The position numbers were made by a program, and so were the translations under genes. From Corynebacterium urinipleomorphum (GTDB lineage Bacteria > Actinomycetota > Actinomycetes > Mycobacteriales > Mycobacteriaceae), in the NCBI RefSeq assembly GCF_900155535.1, contig NZ_LT706962.1, positions 62,001 to 126,000 on the forward strand: DNA of 64,000 nt, given 5' to 3'. Under the pieces are notes generated by a model. That model did not search any database and was not told the origin of the DNA. It was given only the letters and a program-made list of their open reading frames with translations. Below, one piece after another: positions 39,119 through 44,316 of the stretch; the stretch's first letter is position 1, and each line of letters starts with the position of its first letter.

Positions 39119-40237
39119 GTGCTCAAACTTTCGGGCAAGGTCCAGAATTACGCCTGGGGCGACACCTCCAGCATCGCCGGTCTGCAAGGCCGCACACCCA
39201 CCGGCGAACCGGAGGCGGAGATGTGGTTCGGCGCTCATCCGTCCGCGCCCTCGGGTACTGCAGAAGGGCCGCTCGACGCGGTGATCACCGCCGATCCCGA
39301 AGGCACGGTGGGCACACAGGAGACGCTGCCGTTCCTAGTGAAGTTGCTGGCTGCGGCGCAACCGCTGTCCATCCAGGCGCACCCGTCAATCGCCCAAGCG
39401 CAGGAGGGGTTCGCGCGGGAGGATGCCGCGGGGATTCCGCGGGACGCAGCGCACCGCAACTACAAGGACACCAACCACAAGCCCGAGATCCTCATCGCGC
39501 TCACTCCGTTCCGGGCGATGGCGGGGTTCCGTCCGGTGGATGAGACGGTGGCGCTTCTCGACGAACTCGATGTTCCGGAGCTTGAGCATGTCCGCGCATC
39601 GCTTATCGACGGCGACCTCCGCTCCGTCTTGTCCAGCTGGCTGGCTATGGAGGATCCGGCGCCGCTGGTGAACACTGTGCTGGACCGCGCGGCGGAACTC
39701 GACTCGGATGTGGCACGCAACCTGGTGTTCATCGGGGAAGCGTTCCCCGGGGATGTGGGAGTGCTGGCGGCGTTGCTGCTCAACCACATCAACTTGGAGC
39801 CAGGGCAGGCGCTTTTCCTGCCGGCAGGCAACATGCACGCTTACCTCGAAGGCTTCGGCGTGGAAGTCATGGCGAACTCGGACAATGTGCTCCGCGGCGG
39901 CCTGACAGAGAAGCACATCGACGTTGAAGAGCTGGAAGACATTGTCATCTTCGAGCCGATCAAGGACCCGGTTCTGGCGTCCCGCACCGCGGAACAGGGC
40001 GGGGCCGTCGTGTCCGAATTCCCGGTTCCCGTCCCGGATTTCTCGGTGACGCGGTGCACGGGGGAGGGCACTATCCCGGTCGAAGGCCCGGCTATCGTGC
40101 TGGCGGTCGCAGGGGAGGTCGAGCTTGGGGGAGAGCTGAGTCTCCGAGCGGGCGAAGCGGCGTTTGTTCCGGTCTCCGACGGTGTGGTGGCCGCGGCTTT
40201 CGGCTCCGCGGACTTGTTTATTGTGCGGCCCGGCTAA
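39119..40237 (+). CDS. manA: Mannose-6-phosphate isomerase, class I
   Basis: This zinc enzyme interconverts fructose-6-phosphate and mannose-6-phosphate, the entry to GDP-mannose and to the mannosyl donors used by Pmt and lipid mannosyltransferases. Zinc ligands are visible in SIQAHPS (Gln/His, about 82-88), KPEILIAL (Glu, about 121-128) and GNMHAYLEG (His, about 239-247). A C-terminal cupin follows. GTG 39119 has an AAAAGGA SD. Its 3' end overlaps the convergent sqd2-like gene by 20 bp. Confidence 0.95.
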   Translation: MLKLSGKVQNYAWGDTSSIAGLQGRTPTGEPEAEMWFGAHPSAPSGTAEGPLDAVITADPEGTVGTQETLPFLVKLLAAAQPLSIQAHPSIAQAQEGFAREDAAGIPRDAAHRNYKDTNHKPEILIALTPFRAMAGFRPVDETVALLDELDVPELEHVRASLIDGDLRSVLSSWLAMEDPAPLVNTVLDRAAELDSDVARNLVFIGEAFPGDVGVLAALLLNHINLEPGQALFLPAGNMHAYLEGFGVEVMANSDNVLRGGLTEKHIDVEELEDIVIFEPIKDPVLASRTAEQGGAVVSEFPVPVPDFSVTRCTGEGTIPVEGPAIVLAVAGEVELGGELSLRAGEAAFVPVSDGVVAAAFGSADLFIVRPG

Positions 40238-41354
40238 TGCATTCCTCGTAGTACTCCACCAGTTTCTCGGTGGCGGCGCGCCACGACCACCGCTCGGCTT
40301 CCTGGCGGGCGGAGAGGGCCATGGTGTCGCGCAATGGAGCGTCGATAAGCAGGCCCGCGAATGCGTCTGCCCACTGTTGGGGTGTGGCGTGCTTGTCCAC
40401 GAGTCTGCCTGTTTCCCCGTCCTCGATGACGAACGGGATGCCGCCGGCGCGTGCGCCCACGACGGGCACGCCGGAGGCGAACGATTCGAGCGCGACGAGG
40501 CCCAGGGTCTCCGTGAGCGAGGGGAACGCGAAGACGTCGGCGGACGCGAAGGCTTGGGCGAGGGGCGTGCCCGACATGTAGCCGGTGAAGACGGTGTAAG
40601 CGGGGTCGAAGGTCTTCTTCATCTGCTCCAGTTGCGGGCCCGCGCCGACCATGGCCAGACGTGCGCCGGGGACCTTCTCACGCATAAGCGGCATGACTTC
40701 GTTGAGCACGGCGAGGTTCTTTTCCGCGCTCATGCGGCCGACGTAGATGAGCAGCGGGGCGTCGTCTCCATCGGTGAGACGCCCCCGCATTTCAGCCGAG
40801 TAGTTGTCTGGGTGGTAGCCCACGGTGTCCACGGCTTTCGGCCACACCGCAAGGTCGCGGAAGCCGTAACCTCTCGCGGTCTCCAGCATGGGGTCGGAGG
40901 TGACCAGGTTCATCTGCGCGCGGTTGTGAAGCGCGCGGATGAGAGCCGTCGCGGGCGTTTTCACTGCGCCGATCTTGAGTGCTTCCGTGTACGCCGGAAC
41001 GTCGGTGTGGAAAGAGGCGAGCAGCGGCTTCTTATGGAGCTTGGCGAGAAGAACTCCGTACCCAGCGAAGAACACCGGGTTGACGGCGTGGACGATGTCC
41101 GGGTTGAACTCCTTCAACTGCTTCGCCACTGCCGGGGTGGGTAGGCCCACCTTGATCTCCGGGTAGATGCGGTGCAAAGAGACACTCGGGGCGCGGACCA
41201 CCGGGAAGCCGGCGTATGTGTCGGGGGCGTCTCCGGTGGCGAAGATCATCACCTCGTGGCCCATCTCCGCCAGCTGGTCGACAGTGCGGATGACGCGGGT
41301 GACCACGCCGTCGATTTTGGGGAGGAAGACCTCCGTGAAAATCGCGATGCGCAT
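40218..41354 (-). CDS. GT4 glycosyltransferase, SQD2/SqdX-like (probable sulfoquinovosyl transferase)
   Basis: The protein has 378 residues and two GT-B Rossmann domains with no membrane helix, fitting a peripheral lipid glycosyltransferase. N-terminal features are FTEVFLPKIDGVVTRV (7-22) and SFHTDVPAY (about 134-142), where SQD2 has SYHTHVPxY. C-terminal features include RDLAVWPKAVD, IYVGRMSAEKN, the EX7E region SETLGLVALES (SQD2: SETLGLVVLEA), ARAGGIP and WSWRAATEKL (SQD2: DWRAAT). Mycobacterial MgtA, a mannosyltransferase, is the nearest alternative but matches these signatures less well from memory. The start codon abuts the SQD1-like gene's stop with no gap, so the two are an operon. The acceptor would be diacylglycerol. 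Confidence 0.7.
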   Translation of the reverse strand: MRIAIFTEVFLPKIDGVVTRVIRTVDQLAEMGHEVMIFATGDAPDTYAGFPVVRAPSVSLHRIYPEIKVGLPTPAVAKQLKEFNPDIVHAVNPVFFAGYGVLLAKLHKKPLLASFHTDVPAYTEALKIGAVKTPATALIRALHNRAQMNLVTSDPMLETARGYGFRDLAVWPKAVDTVGYHPDNYSAEMRGRLTDGDDAPLLIYVGRMSAEKNLAVLNEVMPLMREKVPGARLAMVGAGPQLEQMKKTFDPAYTVFTGYMSGTPLAQAFASADVFAFPSLTETLGLVALESFASGVPVVGARAGGIPFVIEDGETGRLVDKHATPQQWADAFAGLLIDAPLRDTMALSARQEAERWSWRAATEKLVEYYEECISRAAQ

Positions 41355-42545
41355 CTACGCGTTCTCCGGCACGCCTTCTGCCTGGTTGCGGGTCCACAAA
41401 GAGCGGGCCGGGATCTTGGTGCGGTCGACGCGGTCGGCGTACTTCTTCGCCACGTCCTCGACTTCCTGGAGCAGACCTTCGGCGAGCTTGGTCGGCTCGA
41501 GGCCCAGGCTCAGGAACGTGTCGTTGGACACGTGAAGCTCATTCTCCGCCGATTCCTTGCGCGGGTTGGGCACCAGCGCGTACTCGGTGCCGGAGATCTG
41601 TGCCACCAGCTCGGCGAGGTCACGAACGCGGTGGGTCTCCGTCATCTGGTTGAAGATCATCACACGGTCGCCCTTTGCCGGCGGGTTCTCCAGCGCGATC
41701 TGCACGCACTTGACCATGTCGCGGATGTGGATGAACGCGCGGGTCTGGCCGCCGGTGCCGTGAACGGTGAGCGGGTAGCCGATGGCGGCCTGCATGAGGA
41801 AGCGGTTGAGCACCGTGCCGTAGTCGCCGTCGTAGTCGAAGCGGTTGATCAGGCGCTCGTCGCGCTCCGTCTGCGGGGTGTGGGTGCCCCAGATGATGCC
41901 CTGGTGCAGGTCGGTGATGCGTAGCTCGTCGTTCTTGGCGTAGTAGGCGAAGAGGTTCTGGTCGAGCACCTTGGTCAGGTGGTAGACCGAGCCCGGGTTG
42001 GTGGGGTAGAGGATCTGCTGGTCCACGAGCTCTTCGCCGTTGTCCACCTTGATGTCCAGGTAGCCCTCCGGGATCTTCATTCCGGCGGTGCCGTAGCCGT
42101 ACACGCCCATGGTGCCCAGGTGGACGATGTGGATGTCCAGGCCGGACTCGACAACGGCGACGAGCAGGTTGTGGGTGGCGTTGACGTTATTGTCCACGGT
42201 GTAGCGCTTGGTCACCGGGTTCTTCATGGAGTACGGGGCGGCGCGCTGCTCCGCAAAGTGGATGACCGCATCGGGCTGCTCGGTGACAATGAAGTCTTTG
42301 AGTGCTTCGTAATCCTGGGCGACATCGATGTTGCGGAAGGCGATTTCTTTCCCGGAGACCTCTTTCCAAGCGGCGATGCGCTCCTCAATTGTCGCGATCG
42401 GGGTGAGGGATTCGGCGCCCAGTTCTTTGTCGATTGCGCGGCGGGAAAGGTTGTCCACGATGGTCACGTCGTGGCCGATATCCGAAAGGTGCAGTGATGC
42501 CGGCCAACCACAGAATCCGTCGCCACCGAGAACCGCGATTTTCAT
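41355..42545 (-). CDS. SQD1/SqdB-like UDP-sulfoquinovose synthase
   Basis: The 396-residue protein is an SDR-fold nucleotide-sugar enzyme whose signatures follow SQD1, which makes UDP-sulfoquinovose from UDP-glucose and sulfite. The NAD-binding start is GGDGFCGW (7-14). Further SQD1 hallmarks are [16 protein letters not shown] (45-60), [12 protein letters not shown] (96-107), LGTMGVYG with Thr145, and the catalytic Tyr188 and Lys192 in VYHLTKVLD. Later [28 protein letters not shown] and [17 protein letters not shown] match the SQD1 substrate-binding parts. Ordinary UDP-glucose epimerases lack these. ATG 42545 has GAAAGG 8 nt upstream; the frame reaching 42725 would cross the divergent gene. 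It is the first gene of a two-gene operon. Confidence 0.85.
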   Translation of the reverse strand: [396 protein letters not shown]

Positions 42546-42546
42546 T

Positions 42547-42556
42547 AGGTATACCT
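42547..42556. promoter_or_regulatory. AGGTATACCT palindrome overlapping the sqd1 ribosome binding site
   Basis: A perfect 10-bp palindrome lies between the GAAAGG SD (complement of 42554-42559) and the ATG (42543-42545), sharing three bases with the SD. A TAACGT hexamer (complement of 42580-42585) further upstream could be the -10 element. A separate inverted repeat, ACCCGGC/GCCGGGT (42585-42591 and 42605-42611), lies in the divergent promoter region. Confidence 0.4.
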
Positions 42557-42659
42557 TTCTTTTTGAACGCTTCTCGGTCACGTTACCCGGCTTCGTCGGT
42601 TCGCGCCGGGTGAGTGGAAAATGGCCACAGAGCCAAGACGATCCATGTATGTTTCGGGT

Positions 42660-44316
42660 ATGAAACAAAATGCGGGAGACATCATTGTTGTTGGCGCAGG
42701 ACTGGCGGGGCTGGTTGCTGCGCATGAGGCGGTCAAAGCAGGGCGCAAGGTCGTCTTCGTCGAGCAGGAAAGCCGCGCGAACCTCGGCGGCCAGGCATTC
42801 TGGTCGCTCGGGGGCCTGTTCATGGTGGGCACCCCGGAACAGAAGCTCATGGGGGCGAAGGACTTCGAGGACCTGGCATGGGCTGACTGGGAGAACTCAG
42901 CGGATTATGACGACGAGGATTATGACCGCTGGCCGCGCGAGTGGGGCCGCGAGTACGTGCGCTTCGCGTCCAATGAGATGCACGGCTACCTGAAAGAGCT
43001 GGGCCTGCGCGTGTTGCCCACCGTCGGCTGGGCAGAGCGCGGCTCCGGTGACGCGTCCGGCCACGGCAACACAGTTCCGCGTTTCCACCTCACGTGGGGT
43101 ACAGGCCCGGAAGTCGTGCGGGTTTTCCGCGAACCCGTTGAGCGCGCCGAGCAGGCGGGCCAGGTGGAGTTCAAATTCCGTCACCGCGTCGATGAGATCG
43201 TCGTAGAAGACGGCCGTGCCGTTGGAGTGAAAGGGATGAAGCTGGCTGCAGATTCTTCTGACCGCGGCGTCGCGTCGAATAGCGACGAGGTGGAGCCTTT
43301 CGAGGTGCGCGGGGCCGCAGTGGTGATCTCCACCGGCGGAATCGGCGGCAACCTGGACAAGGTCCGCCAGATGTGGCCGGAGGACCGCTGGGGGCCGTGC
43401 CCGGACGACATGGTCACCGGTGTGCCGGAGCACGTGGACGGTAGAGGCATCGATATTGCCGCTGCTGCCGGTGCCAACCTGGTCAACACCGACCGCATGT
43501 GGCACTACCCGGAGGGCATGATCAACTGGGATCCGATCTGGCCGGGCCACGGCATCCGCATCATTCCCGGTCCGAGCTCCATGTGGCTGGACGCAACGGG
43601 TAAGCGCCTGCCCACCAACTTGTTCCCGGGGTCGGACAACATCGCGGCGCTCGCACACATCGGCAGGACGGGCCACGGGTACTCATGGTTCATCCTCAAC
43701 CAGCACATCGCGGACAAGGAATTCATTTTCTCGGGCTCGGAGCAGAACCCGGACCTGACTGACAAGTCTCTGAAGAAGCTGGCCGGCAAGGTCGGCCCCG
43801 GCACGCACCCGGCGGTGAAGGCTTGTCATGGACAACGGCGTCGACTGGGTCACGGCCGACACGGTCGAGGACCTCGTGCGCACAATGAACGAGCTGGGCG
43901 ACATCGAGCTCGACGGCGAGCTGGTGCGCAAGCAGTTGGTGGAGCGCGACGCGCAGCTGACCAACGACTTCTCCAAGGACGCGCAGGTCAACTACATCCG
44001 CACGGCACGCAACTTCCTGGGCGACAAGCTCGTCCGCTGTGCTGAGCCGCACCGTCTCCTCGACCCGAAGAAGGGTCCGCTCATCGCAGTGAAGCTGCAC
44101 GTGCTCACGCGCAAGACGCTCGGCGGCATCGAGACGGACTTGAACGGCAGGGCCTTGCTTGCCGACGGCTCCGTGTTCCCCGGCCTCTACGCCTGCGGCG
44201 AGGCCGCCGGTTTCGGCGGCGGAGGAATGCACGGAAAGAATGCCTTGGAGGGAACCTTCCTCGGCGGGTGCATTCACTCCGGCAAGCGGGTGGGGGAGAA
44301 CGCAGCCCGGGAGTGA
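42660..44316 (+). pseudogene. FAD-binding dehydrogenase interrupted by a single-base frameshift
   Basis: The gene encodes a fumarate-reductase/KstD-like flavoprotein. The first part (42660 to about 43820) has the FAD-binding motif DIIVVGAGLAGLVAAHEA and the GGQAFWSLGG segment of the putative FAD-binding dehydrogenase family. The homologous protein continues from about 43825 in the +1 frame (VMDNGVDWVTADTVEDLV) and ends with ACGEAAGFGGGGMHGKNALEGTFLGGCI, the C-terminal FAD motif. Removing one T at 43823-43824 joins HPAVKA to VMDN in frame. Without it, the first frame ends at 44045 in unrelated sequence. TATGTT (42648-42653) ends 6 nt before ATG 42660. It may be a recent pseudogene or a sequencing error. 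Intact length would be about 550 residues. Confidence 0.85.

Follow-up and report, generated by a model that had tools for sequence, protein, structure and literature searches.

Sulfoquinovosyl diacylglycerol (SQDG) is usually regarded as a lipid of photosynthetic membranes. One layout of its genes, the Rhodobacter type, is sqdB-sqdD-sqdC (sqdBDC), which matches the Rhodobacterales loci in which SqdB is followed by GT8-like and epimerase-like genes. The other closely comparable layout, the cyanobacterial pair sqdB-sqdX, is known from Synechococcus sp. PCC 7942 (Guler et al. 1996 and 2000, as cited in PMC3806779). Sulfolobus Agl3 belongs to the same reaction family and serves N-glycans, actinobacterial UDP-sulfoquinovose synthases from Mycobacterium vanbaalenii and Propionibacterium freudenreichii as well as SACE_5690 already stand in a published tree (PMC4388408), and Bacillus coahuilensis is named as a non-phototroph with sulfoquinovose (PMC12890257). 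Here we describe a gene pair on a 64,000-nucleotide stretch of the Corynebacterium urinipleomorphum genome (assembly GCF_900155535.1, contig NZ_LT706962.1, positions 62,001 to 126,000; hereafter the window), which, judged from its sequence, is very probably an sqdB-sqdX operon for SQDG. The two genes are the same as those of the cyanobacterial pair, in the same order and orientation, but the host is a non-photosynthetic actinobacterium and its SqdX is 43–48% identical to cyanobacterial SqdX. Compared with the Rhodobacter type, the window SqdB is about 68% identical to Rhodovulum SqdB, but the gene next to it encodes a GT4 transferase instead of the GT8-like and epimerase-like proteins. The actinobacterial synthases in print are of the same enzyme family and from the same phylum as the window SqdB.

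Both open reading frames of the pair are intact and of full length (Table 1). Specifically, the TAG of sqdB (41357–41355) is followed with zero gap by the ATG of sqdX (41354–41352), as the original prediction had stated, and the SQD1 segments that it quoted from the first protein, including Thr145 and Tyr188/Lys192, are all seen in the translation. Among the motifs quoted from the second protein, ARAGGIP and WRAATEKL are present, but the one given as SETLGLVALES reads TETLGLVALES.

The best match of the first protein among Protein Data Bank (PDB) entries is Arabidopsis SQD1 (phmmer, E 6e-100), while the next enzyme, a UDP-glucuronate decarboxylase, follows at E 2.5e-12, about 290 bits weaker, and an unrelated short-chain dehydrogenase/reductase (SDR) was rejected as its identity on this difference. 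The two proteins share 177 of 375 aligned residues (47%; SQD1 structure 1qrr), and the catalytic triad is conserved, with Thr145, Tyr188 and Lys192 of the window protein aligned with Thr145, Tyr182 and Lys186 of SQD1; His96, Arg101 and Met146 are conserved as well. In an alignment of 127 rows (125 loci, the window protein and SQD1), the motif HFxEQRxAP occurs in 126 rows and YHxxK in all 127, and the window protein carries both the SDR triad (Thr, Tyr-x3-Lys) and the family His and Arg of HFxEQRxAP. The essential residues of Agl3, matched to the window protein by motif, are also conserved: changing the counterpart His, Arg, Met, Tyr or Lys to alanine inactivates Agl3, while Thr144Ala is still active (PMC4388408).

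A tree of 74 rows drawn from the 127, with other SDR families left out, separates with support of 100 an 11-row branch of SQD1 and cyanobacterial proteins from a bacterial branch of 63 rows, the window protein among them. In the bacterial branch it is joined by SqdB from cyanobacteria, Rhodobacterales and Firmicutes; the sister branch is made up of SQD1 and the second cyanobacterial type. A split of cyanobacterial SqdB clades has been reported (PMC6946739). The window SqdB is 65–69% identical to one cyanobacterial SqdB type. Furthermore, TMG is followed by Glu in the 12 SQD1-type rows (TMGEYG in Arabidopsis SQD1) and by Val in all 115 bacterial-type rows (TMGVYG in the window SqdB; one of the 115 reads LGTTGVY), and the pairwise alignment with SQD1 opens a two-residue gap at this position. 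The branch with Val includes Rhodobacterales SqdB, with GT8-like and epimerase-like genes downstream, and a cyanobacterial SqdB that adjoins SqdX (L155). Because of its place in the bacterial branch and its Val after TMG, the first protein is assigned as a bacterial-type SqdB rather than SQD1 proper. The earlier identification as SQD1 therefore holds for the UDP-sulfoquinovose synthase family but not for SQD1 itself, and the phylogeny does not in substance remove the protein from that family. One cyanobacterial genome (G244) carries SqdB of either type, at two separate loci (L088 and L119): one locus has the bacterial type, and the other has the SQD1-like type beside SqdX.

The second protein has Pfam GT4 domains and the E-x7-E motif in ETLGLVALE, which place it in the GT4 fold; curated models match it only weakly, as GT4, and its PDB matches are MshA, PimA and others. 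When 77 cyanobacterial genomes were searched with it, 71 gave a single match each at E ≤ 1e-50. SqdB is encoded upstream, on the same strand and within a 1.5-kb flank, at 12 of the 24 cyanobacterial SqdX-clade loci fetched out of 74 matched genomes. Two trees cluster the window transferase with sqdB-linked cyanobacterial SqdX and with proteins of Firmicutes and Trueperaceae: a quick one of 72 rows, where the SqdX clade has support of 98 and the window protein belongs to a branch of its own with actinobacterial and Trueperaceae members, and a careful one of 40 rows, where the clade has support of 99/97. Five of six GT4 paralogues from the same genome were placed in the quick tree (L112–L115 and L117) and three in the careful tree (L112–L114), and all fall outside the clade. 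Of these, L113 is MshA, and L114, which matches C. glutamicum PimB' at E 1.5e-134, is PimB'; membership of the second protein in either group was rejected on this placement. For L112 (G000:C11:354257-355366), which at 34% identity is the closest SqdX paralogue in the genome, no curated model or PDB chain supplies a name; it is perhaps MgtA. The second protein thus lies in the SqdX clade and not with the PimB' of its genome. In particular, Asp15, Val18, Thr19, Arg20, Asn92 and Asn149 are present in 58 of 58 SqdX-clade rows, and in 4, 4, 3, 0, 0 and 0, respectively, of 17 outside rows. The clade placement supports naming the second protein SqdX, in place of the earlier description as SQD2-like.

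The acceptor choice of a GT4 enzyme cannot be read from its sequence, and UDP-sulfoquinovose might be put on another envelope acceptor, such as a phosphatidylinositol mannoside, phosphatidylglycerol, a trehalose lipid or a glycan, to give a sulfoglycolipid other than SQDG. The best curated model of the window transferase is that of N-acetylglucosaminyl-phosphatidylglycerol synthase (NF053787; 144 bits, cut-off 480), and archaeal Agl3 supplies N-glycans (PMC4388408). Nevertheless, the same weak match is shared by a cyanobacterial clade member (162 bits) and by paralogues outside the clade and so does not discriminate, and the enzyme clusters with sqdB-linked cyanobacterial SqdX; we therefore consider another acceptor unlikely. 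With its score below the cut-off and the match shared in this way, identity as a GlcN-phosphatidylglycerol synthase was rejected.

A survey of 242 Corynebacterium genomes found SqdB matches in 86 (E ≤ 1e-30) and transferase matches in 84 (E ≤ 1e-75). That the genus is Corynebacterium is taken from named loci with matches in genomes of the same genus (L031 and L007, L033 and L025). Each of the 84 transferase matches follows sqdB on its strand, at 2–104 bp between match ends, and none occurs without sqdB. The transferase might instead be a mannosyl-, glucosyl- or glucuronosyltransferase of the MgtA/PimB' type, neighbouring an SDR gene by chance, as it shares their GT4 fold, has a same-genome paralogue at 34% identity and finds no SqdX model among the best 25 of its 38 matched families; this strict adjacency, together with the position of L112, MshA and PimB' outside the SqdX clade, makes such an enzyme highly unlikely. 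A species-specific oddity was likewise rejected, as about one Corynebacterium species in three has the pair. Among the named carriers are C. minutissimum, C. pilosum, C. lubricantis, C. phoceense, C. mucifaciens and C. senegalense; C. glutamicum gave no match to the UDP-sulfoquinovose synthase model NF041015 in a control search, in which SqdX was not sought.

At eight of ten named Corynebacterium loci the fetched flank includes a gapX homologue, downstream as in the window at six and on the other side at two, which suggests that the sqdBX site is mostly shared and old in the genus. The transferase directly follows SqdB at 30 of 80 named loci, including those of Kocuria, Citricoccus, Brevibacterium and Trueperaceae. 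A phylum sample of 396 genomes yielded SqdB in 38 (E ≤ 1e-100) and SqdX in 32 (E ≤ 1e-75), and all 14 members of other genera of the same family in that sample lack both at these thresholds. Citricoccus is the sister in the transferase trees, which makes it plausible that the genus received the operon by transfer from a donor of Micrococcales-like kind. Loci of Prauserella, Saccharomonospora and Nocardioides (L074, L079, L087 and L101) encode SqdB, but their fetched flanks show no match to SqdX. In the two genomes searched (those of L074 and L101) the best GT4 match is only 33–34% identical, so that a different transferase or product is likely there.

To find promoter elements, an unsupervised motif search was run on 82 distinct 200-bp sequences upstream of sqdB. 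It returned first the −10-like element GGTAACGT, which in the window starts 42 nt upstream of the sqdB ATG, and second an 11-bp direct repeat, tTCACc....GTTcACC. The log-likelihood of the repeat was 187.6 in 63 thinned sequences, compared with 67.4–80.9 in 20 shuffled sets at equal search effort. Repeats of at least 15 bits precede sqdB in 35 of 83 genomes (2 of 830 shuffles), counts that are partly circular because the matrix was trained on sqdB upstream sequences; the scans of pstS and of background are independent of the training. Upstream of pstS, the same threshold was reached in 15 of 25 hand-picked genomes, 20 with and 5 without sqdB, whose pstS sequences had no part in training (5 of 1000 shuffles). 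It was reached in none of 156 window tiles, and 154 kb of Corynebacterium loci contain five such sites, three of which are sqdB promoters. Among the 35 sites of at least 15 bits, 25 lie 48–50 bp and three lie 60–61 bp before the best −10 match. A lag analysis, a crude method, gave z 5.2 for lags of both 11 and 14 in sqdB upstream sequences and made multiples of three prominent in those of pstS.

The PhoR protein of C. glutamicum binds 8-bp repeats with a 3-bp linker, the best artificial site being CCTGTGAAaatCCTGTGAA (PMC3353115), and the PHO box of S. coelicolor consists of two 11-nt direct repeat units with the core GTTCACC (PMC4415409). In other Corynebacterium species, the 11-bp repeat common to sqdB and pstS accordingly qualifies as PHO-box-like, with PhoR or RegX3 as the candidate binding regulator, and phosphate control of sqdBX is likely in many species of the genus. 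Among 13 sqdBX promoters of other actinobacteria, the repeat reaches 15 bits in none and 10 in three.

The PAPS reductase family PF01507, common to CysH and CysD, was examined as a sign of sulfite supply. It occurs in 83 of 86 Corynebacterium genomes with sqdB and in 124 of 156 without (Fisher p 2e-4, kinship ignored), and the genome of the window has two matches. Two near relatives, G224 and G187, keep sqdBX with no PF01507 match and one weak match, respectively, and because the family is absent or weak there, sulfite for SqdB may come from elsewhere in these genomes.

Several observations weigh against reading the pair as a phosphate-responsive operon for SQDG. The glutamate after TMG, which in Agl3 is Glu147 and the proposed dehydratase acid, is replaced by Val in the window branch; Agl3 E147A retained 12.4% activity (PMC4388408). 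The window SqdB scores 349.7 on NCBIfam model NF041015, below the cut-off of 575. Because both scanned cyanobacterial SqdB proteins that adjoin sqdX also fall short (324 and 471), this low score was not taken as negative evidence. The name SqdX rests on gene neighbourhood and literature, with cyanobacterial SqdX rather than plant SQD2 as the comparison. Three genomes with sqdB (G196, G224 and G236) lack PF01507, being absent among the 207 genomes matched. Finally, the window sqdB promoter itself is without a PHO-box-like repeat, with a best score of 6.7 in 600 bp (L001), as are those of its nearest relatives (L002–L005; −2.0 to 4.4). The window pstS scores 7.3, below the 95th percentile of its shuffles (9.8), and the pstS of G005 and G110, at 7.5 and 8.6, are each below theirs; because all three fall short, the sqdB-trained matrix can miss diverged PHO boxes. 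The suggested role under phosphate limitation is hence favoured by the promoter repeat in other species but not by the promoter in the window.

The missing repeat would also fit a pair that is a relic, decaying or unused in the window's lineage. Decay is seen in relatives, where G220 has an SqdB fragment alone, SqdX finds no match in G236, and an in-frame stop interrupts four SqdX matches (decay signs are listed for G004, G154, G174 and G181), and a neighbouring gene in the window appears frameshifted. In the window itself, however, both reading frames are full length with their catalytic residues, the SqdB proteins of the nearest two species are 95–97% identical to it, and the −10-like element is kept, which make a relic quite unlikely. 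A second, partial SqdB copy is present in G024. The neighbouring gene, FAD-dehydrogenase-like and divergent (42621–44316, forward strand), looks frameshifted by eye: the open reading frame 42621–44045 loses sensible sequence near its end, and an overlapping one in another frame (43828–44316) continues the protein, which looks like an assembly error or a pseudogene.

Table 1. Positions in the window of the sqdB-sqdX pair and its upstream elements
Feature	Position	Strand	Remarks
sqdB, UDP-sulfoquinovose synthase (predicted)	41355..42545	−	396 aa + stop; ATG at 42545
sqdX, GT4, predicted UDP-sulfoquinovose:diacylglycerol sulfoquinovosyltransferase	40218..41354	−	378 aa + stop; acceptor inferred
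GGTAACGT, conserved extended −10-like element upstream of sqdB	42580..42587	−	unsupervised motif search; putative function
AGAAAGG, probable ribosome-binding site of sqdB	42554..42560	−	from sequence; 8 nt before ATG

In the mechanism that we propose, SqdB with bound NAD+ would oxidise UDP-glucose to a 4-keto-5,6-ene, to which sulfite would be added to give UDP-sulfoquinovose, and SqdX, probably coupled in translation through the abutting stop and start, would transfer sulfoquinovose to diacylglycerol at the inner face of the membrane. The product would be an anionic, phosphorus-free lipid, and its likely role across the genus would be to substitute for anionic phospholipids under phosphate shortage. 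About one Corynebacterium species in three has sqdB and sqdX as neighbours, many with an apparent low-phosphate control switch, so the carriers, which are bacteria of skin and environment, probably make SQDG.

No report of SQDG in Corynebacterium was found in the literature searched, outside which most subscription papers lie; the earlier statement to this effect stands within that coverage, beside actinobacterial synthases already in print (PMC4388408, in which a search for Corynebacterium and for SQDG yielded nothing). The enzyme pair in cyanobacteria and the actinobacterial UDP-sulfoquinovose synthases are thus already known, while the breadth of the pair in the genus, the strict linkage of sqdB and sqdX, the placement of SqdX and the PHO-box-like repeat common to sqdB and pstS are new: the enzymes are ordinary and the host is surprising. 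The model species C. glutamicum gives no NF041015 match and the curated cut-off misses this SqdB branch, two facts that could account for the lipid not having been sought.

The conservation of sqdBX in roughly one Corynebacterium species in three, many with a promoter repeat common to sqdB and pstS, allows a direct test of lipid remodelling under phosphate shortage in this genus and points to a source of sulfoquinovose outside plants and algae. We give an even chance to the joint reading that much of the genus produces SQDG as part of its phosphate-starvation regulon, from an operon acquired by transfer from a Micrococcales-like donor and mostly kept at one chromosomal site beside gapX, with the box lost or changed in some lineages, that of the window among them. 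Corynebacterium has a mycolate envelope; if this reading is true, a plant-type sulfolipid would replace anionic phospholipids inside it, and the lineage of the window would make SQDG constitutively or under another signal.

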